From Aquipseudomonas alcaligenes MRY13-0052 (GTDB lineage: Bacteria > Pseudomonadota > Gammaproteobacteria > Pseudomonadales > Pseudomonadaceae), in NCBI GenBank assembly GCA_000474255.1, contig BATO01000004.1:1-64000 (forward strand): a stretch of 64,000 nucleotides of DNA, in the 5' to 3' direction. Made by a program: the position numbers and the translations under genes. The notes beneath the pieces were generated by a model. The model saw only the letters and a list, made by a program, of their open reading frames with translations, was not told where the DNA came from and made no database searches. Positions 57,889-64,000 of the stretch are shown here, piece by piece (the first letter of the stretch is position 1; each line of letters opens with the position of its first letter).

Positions 57889-59277
57889 TCAGCCCGCCTT
57901 GCAGGCGTCGCCGAGCGGTGCCTGCGGGCGCAACATGCGCAAGGTCTTCCACTCGAACCCCAGGGTCAGCCCTACTGCGGCGAAGGCCAGGCCCGATGCC
58001 AGGCCCCACCACACGCCCTGGGCGCCCATTCCCAGGGGGAAGGCCAGCAGCCAGGCCGCGGGCGCGCCCACCAGCCAATAGCAGCCGAGGCCGACGAGGA
58101 AGGTGGTCTTGGCGTCCTTGAGGCCGCGGATGGCGCCCATGGCGATGGTCTGGATGCCGTCGAACAGCTCGAACAGTGCGGCGATAGCCAGCAGGCTCAC
58201 CGCCAGGGCGACCACATCCTGGTACTCGCCGGCAGTGCGGTCGAGGAACAGGCCCACCACCCATTCCGGCGCCAGCCAGAACAGCGCGGCGAAGCTGAGC
58301 ATGCAGCCGGCGCCCACGGCGATGCCCAGGCGCCCGGCGCGGCGTGCGTCTTCCAGGCGACCGGCGCCAAAGTGCTGGCCGATGCGGAAGGTCACCGCGT
58401 AGGAGATGCCCACCGGCACCATGAAGGCCACGTACACCGACATGATCGCGATCTGGTGCGCCGCCAGCGACAGGCTGCCCAGGGCGCCCATGCACAGCGC
58501 GGCGAAGGCGAAGAGGCCGGACTCCACCGCATAGGTGCCGCCGATGGGCAGGCCCAGGCGCAGCAGCTCGCGCAGGTCGTCCAGGCGCGGCTGGAACAGG
58601 CCCTGGCGCAGGGAATAGGCGGCGTAGGCCGGGTGGCGGGTGACGTGCCAGGCCAGCAGCAGCGCCATGACGTTCATCACCAGGGCGGTGACCAGGCCGA
58701 TGCCGGCCAGGCCCAGCGACGGCAGGCCGAACCAGCCATGGATCAGCATGTAGTTGAGGGCGAAGTTGGCCAGCGCGCCGCCGATGCTGATGGCCATCAC
58801 CGGGCCGGGCCGGCCGATGGCGCTGGTGAAGCCGCGCAGGGCCATGAAGCTCATGTAGCCGGGCAGGGCGAACACCAGGGTGGAGAGGAAGCGCATGCCG
58901 CCTTCGATGTTGTGTGCCTCCTGGCCGAACAGCGTCAGCAGCGGGCCGAGGTTCCACAACAGCAGCCCCGCGCCCAGGGCCAGGCCCCAGCCCAGCCACA
59001 GGCCGGCCTGGGTGAGGCGCGCGGCGCCGGCGATGTCCCCGGCGCCGTGGCGGATGGCGACCAGGTTGCCCACGGCGGCGATCACCCCGACGCAGAAGAT
59101 AGACACGAATGAATAGCTCGCCGCGCCCAGGCCGCCGGCCGCCAGCTCCGCCGGGCCGAGCAGGCCCATCATCACCGTGTCGGTGAACACCATCAGCACG
59201 TTGGCCAGCTGCGCCGCGATCAGCGGGCCGGCGAGGCGGAGGATGGCCAGGAGTTCGGAGCGGATCTGCTGTGGCAT
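57889..59277 (-). CDS. MATE family multidrug efflux transporter (NorM-like)
   Basis: A 462-residue inner-membrane antiporter with about 12 helices. MATE landmarks include the N-terminal LRLAGPLIAAQLANVLMVFTDTVMMGLLGPAELAAGGLGAASYSF and mid-protein LGLPIGGTYAVESGLFAFAALCMGALGSLSLAAHQIAIMSVYVAFMVPVGISYAVTFRIGQ. The conserved Asp in FTDTVM of helix 1 is present, as in NorM/PmpM Na+- or H+-coupled pumps. Convergent with the GGDEF/EAL gene; divergent from the LysR gene 124 bases away. Confidence 0.92.
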   Translation of the reverse strand: MPQQIRSELLAILRLAGPLIAAQLANVLMVFTDTVMMGLLGPAELAAGGLGAASYSFVSIFCVGVIAAVGNLVAIRHGAGDIAGAARLTQAGLWLGWGLALGAGLLLWNLGPLLTLFGQEAHNIEGGMRFLSTLVFALPGYMSFMALRGFTSAIGRPGPVMAISIGGALANFALNYMLIHGWFGLPSLGLAGIGLVTALVMNVMALLLAWHVTRHPAYAAYSLRQGLFQPRLDDLRELLRLGLPIGGTYAVESGLFAFAALCMGALGSLSLAAHQIAIMSVYVAFMVPVGISYAVTFRIGQHFGAGRLEDARRAGRLGIAVGAGCMLSFAALFWLAPEWVVGLFLDRTAGEYQDVVALAVSLLAIAALFELFDGIQTIAMGAIRGLKDAKTTFLVGLGCYWLVGAPAAWLLAFPLGMGAQGVWWGLASGLAFAAVGLTLGFEWKTLRMLRPQAPLGDACKAG

Positions 59278-59401: not shown

Positions 59402-60334
59402 ATGGGCTCAACCATGACGCGTCGCCTGCCACCGCTTTACGCCCTGCGTGCCTTCGAAGCCGCGGCGCGCCATGCCTCCTTCACCCGTGCCGCCGAGGAG
59501 CTGGCCATCACGCAGAGCGCGGTGAGCCGGCATATCCGCACCCTGGAGGAGCATTTCGCCTGCCGCCTGTTCGAGCGCAAGGGGCGCAGCCTCCAGCTCA
59601 CTGAGCCGGCGCGGATGATCCTGCCCGGCCTGCGCGAGGGCTTCGATTCCCTGGAGCGTGCCTGCGCCACGCTGCGGGTGGACGACAGCATCCTCTGCCT
59701 CAAGGCGCCCTCGACCTTGACCATGCGCTGGTTGCTGGCGCGGCTGTCGCGCTTCCGCCTGCAGAACCCGGACGTGGAGGTGCAGCTGACCAGCGCCTGG
59801 ATGGATGTGGACAAGGTCGACTTCAACCACGAGCCCTTCGACTGCGCGGTGCTGCTGAGCAGCGGCGGCTTCAGCGATGAATGGGAGAGCGTCGAGCTGT
59901 TCGCCGAATGGCTGATCCCGGTCAGCGCGCCCTCGGCCGCCGCCGAGGGGCCTTGGGACCTGGCGCGCCTGCGTGGCGCCGAGCTGCTGCACCCCACGCC
60001 GGATCGCCGCGACTGGCGGCGCTGGTTGCACGCCATGGGCCTGGAGCAGGACGTGCCGCTCAAGGGCGGCCAGGTGTTCGACACCCTGGAGCTGGGCATA
60101 GTCGCGGCGACGCGGGGCTACGGCATCTCCATCGGCGACCTGGTGATGGTCGCCGAGGATGTGGAGGAAGGGCGCATCGGCCTGCCCTGGCCCAGCGCCG
60201 TACCCAGCGGCCAGAGTTACTACCTGGTGTGGCCGAAGGCACGCAGCGGCCAGGATCGCCTGCGTCGCCTGCGGGATTACCTGCTGGCCGAAGTAGCGGC
60301 GATGCGTTTGCCGCCGGTGAGCTTCAAGCGCTAG
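59402..60334 (+). CDS. LysR-family regulator (GcvA-like)
   Basis: A 310-residue regulator. The [58 protein letters not shown] is of the GcvA subgroup, whose partner domain is here [34 protein letters not shown] followed by the LysR substrate domain. The alternative start ATG 59414 would give [11 protein letters not shown], which is the more familiar GcvA-type beginning; neither has a good ribosome site. Divergent from the MATE gene, which it might control (inference). Confidence 0.88.
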
Positions 60335-60483: not shown

Positions 60484-62460
60484 ATGAACCCGCCCAGGTC
60501 TCGTATCGCCTGGCAGCTCGCCGCCGCCCTCGCCCTGATCCTCGTGTTGCTGATCAGTGGCAGCACGCTCTTCGCCCTGCGCTCCCTGGACCAGGCCAAC
60601 CTGGCCACCCGCGAAGAGCACCTGGCCAGCGAGGCCCGCCTGCTCGCCGACCAGCTCAGCACCTTCCACGGCAGCCTGCGCGAAAGCACCCAGCGCCTCG
60701 CCAGCCTGTTCGAGCAGCGCTTCGCCAGCGGCCTCGCGCTGCACGCCGACGAGCGCGTGCCGGTCGCCGCACTGAGCCCGCCGGCCCTGTACCTCAACGG
60801 CCAGGTGCTGAACAACGATTTCACCCTGGTGGACGAGTTCCGCCACCTCACCGCCGGCGTGGCCACGGTGTTCGTCCGCGATGGCGCCGACTTCGTCCGC
60901 GTCACCACTTCGCTGAACAAGCAGGACGGCACCCGCGCCATCGGCACCGTGCTCGACCACGCCCACCCTGCCTACCAGCGCCTGCTGTCCGGGCAGAACT
61001 ACGTGGGCCGCGCCCTGCTCTTCGACCGCTACTACATGACCCAGTACACGCCGGTGCGCGACAGCGGCGGCCAGGTCATCGCGGTGCTCTTCGTCGGCTT
61101 CGACTACACCGATGCGCAGAATGCCCAGTTCGCCAACCTGCAGCGCTTCCGCATCGGCAAGACCGGCTCCCTGGCGCTGATGGACGAAACCGGCAAGTGG
61201 CTGGTGACCCCGGCCGGCGTGCGCCGCCCGGAAGCCATCGGCGACACCCTCGCCGCGCTGGCCCGCGAGCCCGGCCATGGCCGTTTCTGGAGCGACGGCG
61301 AAGAGGACTTCTTCAGCGTTGCCGTGTCCTTCGCCGATGGCCCCTGGCAGGTGGTGGCGAGCATGCCCAAGGCGGAGATCCACGAGGTGACTTGGAGCGT
61401 CGGCGGCCAGCTGGCCTTCGGCAGCCTGCTGGCCATGGTGCTGGCGGTAACCTCGGTGATCTGGCTGCTGCGCAAGCGCCTGCGTCCGCTGGGCGAACTG
61501 GTGGAGCAGGCCCGGGCGCTGGGCGCCGGCGACCTCAGCGTGCGCCTGGATGTATCCAGCAACGACGAGATCGGCGAGCTGGCGCGCAGCTTCAACCAGA
61601 TGGGCGAGGCGCTGTCGACCATGGTGGCGCACATCCGCAGCTCGGCGCAGCAGGTCGGCAGTCGCTCCCAGGTGCTGTCGGGTCTATCCAGCGGCGCCTA
61701 TGAAGGCATGGAGCAGCAGTCCGGTGAGATCAGCAGCATGGCCGGCGCGGTGGAGGAGTTCAGCGCCACCTCGCTGAACATCGCCGACAACATGCGTGCC
61801 ACCGAGCGCATGGCCAGCGACAACGCCCAGCAGACCCGCATCGGCCAGAGCTCCATGGGCGAGGCCTCTGCGGCGCTGGAGCAGATATCCACAGCCCTCA
61901 ACGGCACCGCCGAAGTGATCAACACCCTGGGCCAGCGCTCCCAGGAAATCGGCGGCATCGTCGGGGTCATCACCGCCATCGCCGACCAGACCAACCTCTT
62001 GGCACTCAACGCTGCCATCGAGGCGGCGCGTGCCGGCGAGCAGGGCCGGGGCTTCGCTGTGGTGGCCGATGAGGTGCGCAACCTGGCGGCCCGTACCCGC
62101 GAGGCGACCACCGAGATCTCCAGCATGATCGGCAGCATCCAGGATGAGACCGCCAGTGCCATCAGCACCATGGAGCACGGCAAGGCGTTGATGCAGGACG
62201 GCCTGGAGCGCAACGCCAAGGTCGCCGCCGCCCTGGCGCAGATCGCCCAGCAGAGCACCGCTGCTGGTGAGCAATTCGCCGCCATCACCACCGCCACCCA
62301 GGAGCAGAGCAGCACCGCGACCCTGCTCAGCAGCAACCTGCAGAGCATCGCCCTGGCCAACAGCGAGCAGCGCGAAGTGGTCGCCAACCTGGCGCAGACC
62401 GCCCAGGAGCTGGACCGCCTGGCCGAGGAACTGCGCCAGGAAGTGGGGCGCTTCCGCTGA
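60484..62460 (+). CDS. methyl-accepting chemotaxis protein with Cache_3/Cache_2-type sensor
   Basis: A 658-residue transducer. TM1 is about residues 9-31. A large periplasmic domain (about 35-305) has [47 protein letters not shown] and [26 protein letters not shown], the signature of a double Cache-type ligand domain. TM2 is about 307-330, a HAMP follows (331-383), and a cytoplasmic signalling domain has the hairpin tip near 494-535 ([41 protein letters not shown]). GGAGA is 7 bases from ATG 60484. No CheB/CheR tail pentapeptide is obvious at the C-terminus. The ligand is unknown. Upstream LysR gene ends 149 bases away. Confidence 0.92.
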
Positions 62461-62483: not shown

Positions 62484-62509
62484 AAAAGGCGCCCCGATGG
62501 GCGCCTTTT
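62484..62509. terminator. bidirectional terminator after the chemoreceptor gene
   Basis: An 11-bp stem (AAAAGGCGCCC with its complement) around a 4-base loop. It lies between convergent genes with stops at 62460 and 62536. Confidence 0.92.
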
Positions 62510-62535: not shown

Positions 62536-63342
62536 TCACTCGGTGGCCAGGCTCTCCAGCTCACGGCTGAGGCTGGCGCGGGACAGTTCGCCCATGTGGC
62601 TCTTCAGCATCCGCCCCTGGCCGTCGTAGAACAGTGTGGTCGGCAGGCCGTAGGAGCCGGTCAGCGCGCCGAAGCGGTTGCCGCCGTCGATCAGCACGTC
62701 CTGCACCTCCAGGCCCTGCTCCTGCAGGAAGCGCTTCACGTGCTCGGCGTTCTCGCCCTGGTTGATCAGCACGAAGCGCAGGTCGGGCCGGGCTTGCTGG
62801 GCCGCTTGCAGGGCCGGCATCTCGCGGCGGCACGGCGGGCACCAGGTGGCCCAGAGGTTGATCACCAGCGGCCGACCGTCCAGTTCACGGATATCCACAG
62901 GCTTGCCGTCGAGGTCGCTCAGCGCCACGTTCGGCAGTTGGCGGCCGCTCTCCAGGGCTGCCAGCAGCGCGCTGCCTCCGCCCCAGAGCGTGGCGCCCAC
63001 CAGCAGGGCGATACCCAAGGGCCGGCGCACGGCTGGGTGACGGCGAGCCTGCAGCAAACCGACCAGCGCCGCGGCTGCCAGGCCGGGCAGCAGGAGGAAG
63101 CCGCCGTCGCGGATATCCAGCATGCGCCAGGGTTCGGCACGGTAGTCGGCGAGGTAGAGCGCCACGAAGCCGACGCGTGCGGCGAGCACACCGGCTACAA
63201 GCATGCTGAACAGCACCGATTCGGGATTGCCCCCGCGCCGGCGGCCCTGCCACCAGCCACAGACCAGCGCAGAGAAGAACCCCAGGTAGAACAGCGCCTG
63301 GGAGGCGGAAAGGGCGACAGGGCCGATTTGCAGGCTGTTCAT
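62536..63342 (-). CDS. TlpA-like thioredoxin with Lgt-like membrane domain
   Basis: A 268-residue membrane-tethered redox protein. The N-terminal ~135 residues have four hydrophobic segments and a layout like prolipoprotein diacylglyceryl transferase (LFSMLVAGVLAARVGFVALYLADY and the strand DIRDGGFLLLPG). However, the Lgt active-site histidine of the GG.SFHG motif is replaced (GGFLLLPG), so transferase activity is unlikely. The C-terminal ~130 residues are a TlpA/ResA thioredoxin (DLDGKPVDIRELDGRPLVINLWATWCPPCRREMPAL, with CPPC, and GSYGLPTTLFYDGQGR), facing the periplasm. The start at 63342 (MNSLQIGPVALSA) is chosen over longer frames. It would act in periplasmic disulfide reduction, for example cytochrome c maturation. 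Confidence 0.86.
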   Translation of the reverse strand: MNSLQIGPVALSASQALFYLGFFSALVCGWWQGRRRGGNPESVLFSMLVAGVLAARVGFVALYLADYRAEPWRMLDIRDGGFLLLPGLAAAALVGLLQARRHPAVRRPLGIALLVGATLWGGGSALLAALESGRQLPNVALSDLDGKPVDIRELDGRPLVINLWATWCPPCRREMPALQAAQQARPDLRFVLINQGENAEHVKRFLQEQGLEVQDVLIDGGNRFGALTGSYGLPTTLFYDGQGRMLKSHMGELSRASLSRELESLATE

Positions 63343-63436: not shown

Positions 63437-64000
63437 TCAGGGCTCGGTGGCCGGTCGGTACTGCAGCGCCTCGGCCAGGTGCTGGCGGGCAATGGCCGGG
63501 GTGCCATCGAGATCGGCGAGGGTGCGGGCGACCTTGATGATGCGGTGTGCGGCGCGCAACGACAGGCCGAGGCGTTCGCAGGCGTTTTCCAGCCAGCGGC
63601 GGTCCTCCACCACCAGCGAGCAGTGGCGACGCAGGCCCTGGAGGTCGAGAAACGCGTTGGCGCAGCCCTGGCGATCGAGCTGGCGCTGGCGGGCCTGGGC
63701 CACGGTTTTCGCGGCGCTTGCACTGTCCTGGCCGCCGGGCTTGGGGTCGTCCAGCGAGGTGGCTTCGCGGGCGACGGTGAGGTGCAGGTCGATGCGGTCG
63801 AGCAGCGGGCCGGAGAGCTTGGCGCGGTAGCGCTGGATCTGCTCCGGGGTGCAACGGCATGGGTTGGTGATGTCGCCCAGGTAGCCGCAGGGGCAGGGGT
63901 TCATGGCGGCGACCAGCTGGAAACGCGCCGGGAAGCGCACCCGGTCGTTGGCCCGGGCGATGACGATCTCGCCGCTTTCCAGGGGCTCGCGCAGGACCTC
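63437..64000 (-). CDS. comM: ComM (YifB), Mg-chelatase-like AAA+ ATPase, 3' part
   Basis: The C-terminal ~187 residues of a helicase-type AAA+ protein, open through the right window edge (5' part outside). The visible region runs from GEIVIARANDRVRFPARFQLVAAMNPCPCGYLGD through CTPEQIQRYRAKLSGPLLDRIDLHLTV to the C-terminal Mg_chelatase_C domain, GLSLRAAHRIIKVARTLADLDGTPAIARQHLAEALQYRP. The CPCGY zinc-like motif and LSGPLLDRIDLH are typical of ComM. ComM promotes branch migration in natural transformation and DNA exchange. It reads toward the TlpA-like gene, with a 94-base gap. Confidence 0.95.
   Translation of the reverse strand, partial: EVLREPLESGEIVIARANDRVRFPARFQLVAAMNPCPCGYLGDITNPCRCTPEQIQRYRAKLSGPLLDRIDLHLTVAREATSLDDPKPGGQDSASAAKTVAQARQRQLDRQGCANAFLDLQGLRRHCSLVVEDRRWLENACERLGLSLRAAHRIIKVARTLADLDGTPAIARQHLAEALQYRPATEP

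Follow-up and report, generated by a model that had tools for sequence, protein, structure and literature searches.

The fusion gene and its surroundings

The window, a stretch of 64,000 nucleotides at the start of contig BATO01000004.1 of Aquipseudomonas alcaligenes MRY13-0052, contains a minus-strand gene for a protein of 268 aa (62536..63342, from its open reading frame; ATG at 63342, TGA stop at 62536-62538), the start codon of which is shared with a 91% identical copy from the same species. The protein joins two parts. Residues 1-131 (62950..63342, minus strand) form a membrane half derived from prolipoprotein diacylglyceryl transferase (Lgt), as delimited by the Pfam LGT match, hhalign, the structural match to 5azb and secondary structure. 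Residues 132-268 (62539..62949, minus strand) form a TlpA/ResA-type thioredoxin domain with ResA and TlpA as PDB relatives, for which the Redoxin (62.2 bits), AhpC-TSA (51.8 bits) and Thioredoxin profiles were all above their Pfam cut-offs. A fusion of this kind had been proposed at 62536-63342 in an initial annotation made from the sequence alone; the gene was found there, and the motifs that had been quoted for it, ARVGFVALYLADY and DIRDGGFLLLPG, are each present in the translation of the fusion protein, as is WCPPC.

The window protein was aligned with 52 relatives, giving an alignment of 53 proteins; of the 69 relatives located, the 17 excluded were mainly near-duplicates, plus L029 and L039, which have partial starts. 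The WCPPC active site (residues 167-171; 62830..62844, minus strand) is identical in all 53 proteins, so the CPPC thioredoxin was rightly described as intact, and Pro234 (62641..62643, minus strand) is an invariant column, which we take to be the cis-proline position of the thioredoxin fold.

The 3' end of a comM-like (YifB) gene lies 94 bp upstream of the fusion gene on the same strand (63437..64000, minus strand) and is truncated by the end of the window. On the other side, a chemoreceptor gene, named by eye from its translation, ends at 62460 and is convergent with the fusion gene. Between the two convergent genes is the hairpin GGCGCCC-CGAT-GGGCGCC (62488..62505), flanked by A and T runs, which was found by eye, is absent from the output of the consensus scan and is probably a shared terminator of both transcripts. 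Further away, the translations of 57889-59277 (minus strand) and 59402-60334 (plus strand) resemble, by eye, a MATE-type efflux protein and a LysR-type regulator, respectively.

A membrane half made from the front of Lgt

The Pfam LGT profile (PF01790) matched residues 4-102 with 31.8 bits, above its cut-off of 24.9, and the match covered profile positions 4-104 of 240. Across the alignment, LGT was matched in 49 of the 53 proteins and Redoxin, AhpC-TSA and Thioredoxin in all 53 (E≤0.01 throughout), counts that are far beyond chance. Comparison of the N-terminal halves of the 53 proteins with ten genuine Lgt proteins by hhalign gave a probability of 98% (E 2.1e-13, 103 columns), and a profile of the N-terminal half of the family retrieved the genuine Lgt of the window genome at E 1.8e-12. 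When 200 genomes sampled from the phylum were searched with this profile, 184 contained a match. Among the matches listed, fusions scored at least 87.8 bits and those at or below 62.5 bits were mostly open frames of Lgt-like length; rare other partners of the half-Lgt are possible. On the NCBIfam lgt equivalog the fusion scored 25.1 bits, below the cut-off of 118.9, and the genuine Lgt of the window genome (G000:C161) scored 284.3 bits.

The full-length protein was predicted by AlphaFold with a mean pLDDT of 93.3 and a pTM of 0.87, and the N-terminal half modelled alone had a mean pLDDT of 88.6 and a pTM of 0.75. In a Foldseek search of the PDB with the latter model, the first row was E. coli Lgt (5azb; E 1.2e-3, probability 1.00, TM 0.61 by query length), and the rows after it were at E 0.24 and worse. 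VIA-align also placed 5azb first, with Z 9.4 over 132 residues (rmsd 3.3 Å, Lgt residues 12-152) and the next row at Z 5.9; because helical bundles may reach middling Z values by chance, the sequence evidence for Lgt homology matters. For the full-length model, the top rows from both the PDB and the viral library were all thioredoxin-fold proteins, and the C-terminal half was structurally closest to ResA and TlpA. In the predicted structure, the membrane half consists of a beta-hairpin, arm 1 (3-6 and 9-12), four long helices (13-36, 41-62, 84-101 and 103-131) and the short helices of arm 2 (64-67 and 71-75), elements that fit the arms and TM1-4 of Lgt as given in excerpts of PMC13251419.

A full-length Lgt has seven transmembrane helices, a head domain and about 240 profile positions, and in the fusion four long helices are followed directly by the thioredoxin. 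The N-terminal half is therefore only the front half of Lgt, its first approximately 130 residues (arms and TM1-4). The initial annotation had proposed a search with PF01790 and a comparison of the predicted structure with Lgt as checks on its claim of Lgt homology, with a structural mismatch counting against it; both comparisons upheld the claim. Its description of a dead transferase domain holds for the lost catalytic motif and has to be narrowed for the domain, which is half an Lgt and not a whole transferase. The role that it suggested for this domain, a membrane scaffold or a binding site for a partner, is a putative one.

Excerpts of PMC13251419 state that E. coli Lgt absolutely requires Y26, H103, R143, N146, G154 and R239. 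In the window fusion the first four positions are occupied by S14, L85, T118 and G121, and the regions that bear G154 and R239 are absent. The H103 column (HGG motif) contains Trp in 30 of the 53 proteins and His in none in the alignment as made, in agreement with the earlier claim that the active-site histidine is lost; in five Halomonas-type rows an HG or HP (QPG[YF]H) stands two columns before it, and a two-residue gap would set their His against H103. Tyr was found in 0/53 at the Y26 column. Arg was found in 0/53 at the R143 column and Asn in 1/53 at the N146 column; these two columns were placed by a simple anchor at a common Pro-Leu and are less sure than the loss, since Arg is never among the six commonest residues at any of positions 109-130. 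The counterparts of three other Lgt residues are retained. Arg56 (63175..63177, minus strand), aligned with E. coli R73, is invariant (53/53), and in DIRDGGFLLLPG (residues 76-87; 63082..63117, minus strand), the counterpart of GGMSFHGG in Lgt, the His is lost and G81 (G99; 52/53) and G87 (G105; 53/53) are kept. As some species have Y, W or F in place of H103 in their Lgt (excerpts of PMC13251419), loss of the HGG histidine alone is not proof of inactivity, and the case is made by loss of the other essential residues. Judged by these losses, Lgt activity of a known type is not expected of the fusion. The combination of lost catalytic residues with retained R56, G81 and G87 indicates that the Lgt fold is under selection and its chemistry is gone.

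The loops between the helices of the window protein differ in charge (loop 1, 3 K/R and 1 D/E; loop 2, 3 K/R and 4 D/E; loop 3, 4 K/R and 0 D/E), and the family means agree with these values. These charges place both short basic loops on the inside and leave the linker and the loop of arm 2 outside, so that the thioredoxin domain should be periplasmic and the protein should end outside. There is no conserved Cys in the membrane half, the commonest Cys column of the alignment reaching 6/53. A CcdA-like cysteine relay in this half was considered and dropped on that count: with Cys scattered there, the membrane half is unlikely to be an electron relay of the CcdA/DsbD type, and a partner must therefore supply the electrons. 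Distances between N-terminal halves correlated with those between C-terminal halves (r 0.84; 0 of 999 permutations as high), which indicates that the two halves have travelled together.

Distribution and relationship to the dsbDEG locus

The full fusion was found in all 18 genus genomes searched and a full-length match in 26 of 299 sampled phylum genomes (28 rows). In the phylum search there was a gap from E 7.6e-79 to E 1.1e-32, and matches on its weaker side covered the thioredoxin part only. One fusion (L033) was found in a MAG labelled Deinococcota. The fusion is not a local accident or a one-off and is conserved across Pseudomonadota. In a tree of 69 proteins, the window gene fell in a comM-linked clade with strong support (100/99), inside the Pseudomonas part and beside L004, which is dsbD-adjacent; context labels on the tree were assigned by hand from the neighbourhoods and rows with short flanks were labelled 'other'. 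Halomonas-type fusions (L040, L041, L046, L050 and L051), in which QPG[YF]H replaces DGGF, form a deep separate clade and lie beside rapA, a gene found near the fusion in nine of 52 loci (L003-L054); eight Halomonas-type rows near rapA have no Dsb genes in view. Two genomes have two fusion copies each (L141 and L142 in G037; L143 and L144 in G425), with one copy in a dsb operon and the other elsewhere, and the second copy L142 adjoins Blh. Selenocysteine was considered for four full-length relatives (G119, G090, G402 and G244) on account of an internal TGA or TAG and was rejected, as these were ordinary stops at the gene end or outside it.

Among the loci of 52 relatives (L003-L054), dsbD lies at most 42 bp upstream of the fusion in 20 (any DsbD match, 22), with DsbG nearby in 19, a sensor-kinase match in 18 and a regulator match in 18. 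An L,D-transpeptidase was found in five of these loci, immediately downstream of the fusion in four, all Alphaproteobacteria, and Blh-like matches in six (three strong). A further 16 loci from the phylum gave DsbD in six, DsbG in five and Blh-like matches in three (two strong). The 28 control loci of non-fusion TlpA relatives (L055-L082), many of them from other phyla, contained DsbD in three, DsbG and transpeptidase in none and one weak Blh match (29%). In L005 the dsbD stop overlaps the fusion start as TGATG, and NCBIfam identified DsbD (598 bits, cut-off 330) and DsbG (359 bits, cut-off 124) in the L113 locus.

This arrangement corresponds to a known operon. Excerpts of PMC13101516 give the P. 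fluorescens locus as dsbS-dsbR/dsbD-dsbE-dsbG (PFLU4380-4384), in which small colony variants arise when dsbS is mutated, through a mutation upstream, or when a deletion fuses dsbE to dsbG. In P. aeruginosa, DsbRS is activated by copper and the copper sensitivity of a dsbRS mutant is rescued by dsbDEG, according to excerpts of a review (PMC10141476). These copper phenotypes belong to the whole operon and not to the fusion subunit. Fifteen of the 20 relatives that adjoin dsbD were aligned from end to end with the window protein, which shares both family and domain architecture with the protein encoded between dsbD and dsbG. Its relatives are thus the 'DsbE' of the known dsbDEG locus, a point that the initial annotation had missed. 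Names differ between sources, with annotators using 'TlpA family' and the operon papers 'DsbE'.

Several relatives' loci have additional genes. In the Pollutimonas locus L028 (3878-5259), a second, single TlpA-type protein of 183 aa is encoded directly after the fusion and before dsbG, and looks like an extra copy of the reductase part that lacks the half-Lgt. The four loci with an immediately downstream L,D-transpeptidase (L031, L044, L049 and L052; Paracoccus-like Alphaproteobacteria) have it 0-123 bp from the fusion, followed in three of them by a DsbA-like gene. In the P. fluorescens/putida group (L005-L008, L010-L012 and L021; eight of 52 loci), an NRPS-like gene, named by eye, lies past dsbG on the other strand.

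Within the genus, the fusion is near comM in seven of 11 loci, in a dsb locus in two and near neither in two. DsbD was present in all ten genus genomes tested, with an operon-type copy (>90% identity) in only two, and a DsbG match was present in four of the ten, one of them marginal. The window genome has one DsbD (658 bits, cut-off 330) and no DsbG match. Its fusion gene is outside any DsbRS-controlled dsbDEG operon, standing alone beside comM, and looks like a dsbE that has moved away from its operon or survived the operon's loss. If DsbD does reduce the window copy, the housekeeping DsbD would have to do so. The role of this copy may have shifted because it lies outside the operon in a genome without a DsbG match.

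Function and comparison with known systems

The preferred reading, to which we assign a probability of roughly 0.6, is that the protein is a DsbD-fed periplasmic thiol:disulfide reductase anchored by an inactive half-Lgt at the outer face of the inner membrane. The four helices and basic inner loops would place both ends of the membrane half outside, and the half-Lgt would keep the CPPC domain near the outer leaflet. As the membrane half is without conserved cysteines, DsbD is the candidate electron source; reducing power would pass from the cytoplasm through DsbD to the CPPC domain, with a dedicated DsbD as putative donor in operon-bearing relatives and the housekeeping DsbD in the window genome. 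The CPPC domain may then hold selected cysteines in the periplasm or near the membrane in the reduced state, chiefly during copper or oxidative stress. DsbG and L,D-transpeptidases depend on or protect single periplasmic cysteines, and their presence as neighbours is consistent with a reductase that maintains such cysteines in the thiol form. CPPC thioredoxins can work in either direction, redox potential being unreadable from sequence, and the reductive direction is predicted here. The literature search found no experiment on a half-Lgt thioredoxin protein.

Other roles were weighed against this one. A role as a reductase in copper-site assembly, of the Bradyrhizobium TlpA type, is rather unlikely for the protein; such a reductase maintains Sco and the CuA subunit of cytochrome oxidase in the reduced state. 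Rhizobial TlpA is among the best NCBIfam and PDB relatives (83.6 bits; 1jfu, 4txo and 4txv) and the operon is copper-responsive in P. aeruginosa (excerpts of review PMC10141476), but the 83.6 bits are far under the TlpA equivalog cut-off of 230, and neither sco nor cox was among those of the recurring neighbour clusters to which a name was given. The ResA profile was also below its cut-off (76.6 bits against 170). A role in cytochrome c maturation, as CcmG (DsbE in the E. coli sense), is suggested by the name dsbE given to the operon gene (excerpts of PMC13101516) and by a weak TIGR00385 match; that match, at 60.7 bits, is below the cut-off of 123.15, and the window genome has its own genuine CcmG (192.9 bits), between ORFs resembling by eye ccmF and ccmH, which makes this role highly improbable for the fusion.

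Defence against sulfide or persulfide, by reduction of persulfidated periplasmic cysteines, would account for Blh-type persulfide dioxygenase genes near the fusion in five scattered loci (L014, used as query, and L024, L025, L142 and L149, with 48-59% identity to it; controls, 1/28 and weak at 29%) and for BigR together with a YeeE/YedE pair near it in L013 and L019; the names Blh and BigR come from NCBIfam, in both cases under the equivalog cut-offs. This context is confined to a minority (seven of 68 loci scanned, plus L036 and L044 with only a BigR or YeeE/YedE match), is not that of the window gene, and carries a Blh label that is scattered on the tree and no more clustered than shuffled labels. 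A persulfide role is possible in some lineages, and as the general explanation it is decidedly unlikely. Least credible is that the protein transfers lipid itself or regulates Lgt by pairing with it directly: R56 and G87, which are invariant, and G81, which nearly is, show that the Lgt fold is under selection, but essential residues are lost, half of the enzyme is absent and the window genome has a full Lgt. There is also a small chance, little above that of the CcmG role, that the half-Lgt, which has kept both arms and TM1-4, can still accept prolipoproteins, or the lipobox region of these, at the outer leaflet, with the fused reductase keeping the lipobox Cys reduced so that it can be lipidated by the real Lgt. 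The fusion would then be a thiol guard of lipoprotein maturation, made from a piece of the enzyme that it serves, and if the half-Lgt does still meet lipoprotein precursors, thiol protection of the lipobox Cys is directly testable.

On the reading of an anchored, DsbD-fed reductase, Pseudomonadota have widely put the first half of an essential enzyme of lipid transfer to new use, as the membrane portion of a disulfide reductase. DsbE, a poorly understood protein of the dsbDEG loci that respond to copper, gains a defined anatomy. Two labels are misleading: 'Lgt' on such proteins, and 'DsbE', which is CcmG in E. coli. The gene is a relative of a known operon gene, and its half-Lgt domain was not found described in the literature searched: a Lgt-thioredoxin fusion did not appear in the titles and abstract openings from the search, with the primary DsbRS study (Sci Bull 2022) lying outside it. 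The half-Lgt thioredoxin is an old, widespread and little-noticed member of a known disulfide-reduction pathway.

Salmonella ScsD is a predicted membrane protein of the thioredoxin superfamily from the ScsABCD cluster, which has DsbD-like and isomerase-like partners and in which scsB, scsC and scsD single mutants are copper sensitive; its likeness to the fusion is drawn from this description and not from sequence, and the Lgt half goes unmentioned for ScsD in the excerpted text (PMC3672137). Closer is the Pseudomonas DsbE of SBW25 (PFLU4383), as its gene order is the same in L005, L113 and other loci and the relatives there share the fusion architecture. The likeness to DsbE of SBW25 and PAO1, whose homologue of PFLU4383 is presumably PA2477, comes from gene order and the relatives' proteins, not from those two proteins themselves. 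Compared with the dsbRS/dsbDEG locus, the window copy is solo by comM in a genome without a DsbG match or operon-type DsbD. The fusion resembles E. coli Lgt (PF01790, 5azb) in its N-terminal fold, arms and counterparts of R73, G99 and G105, and differs from it in having no TM5-7, no head domain and no counterparts of Y26, H103, R143 and N146. With TlpA and ResA it shares the thioredoxin fold, WCxxC, the cis-Pro position and a domain placed behind a membrane anchor. However, the anchors of TlpA and ResA are a single helix or a lipid, and that of the fusion is a four-helix half-enzyme.
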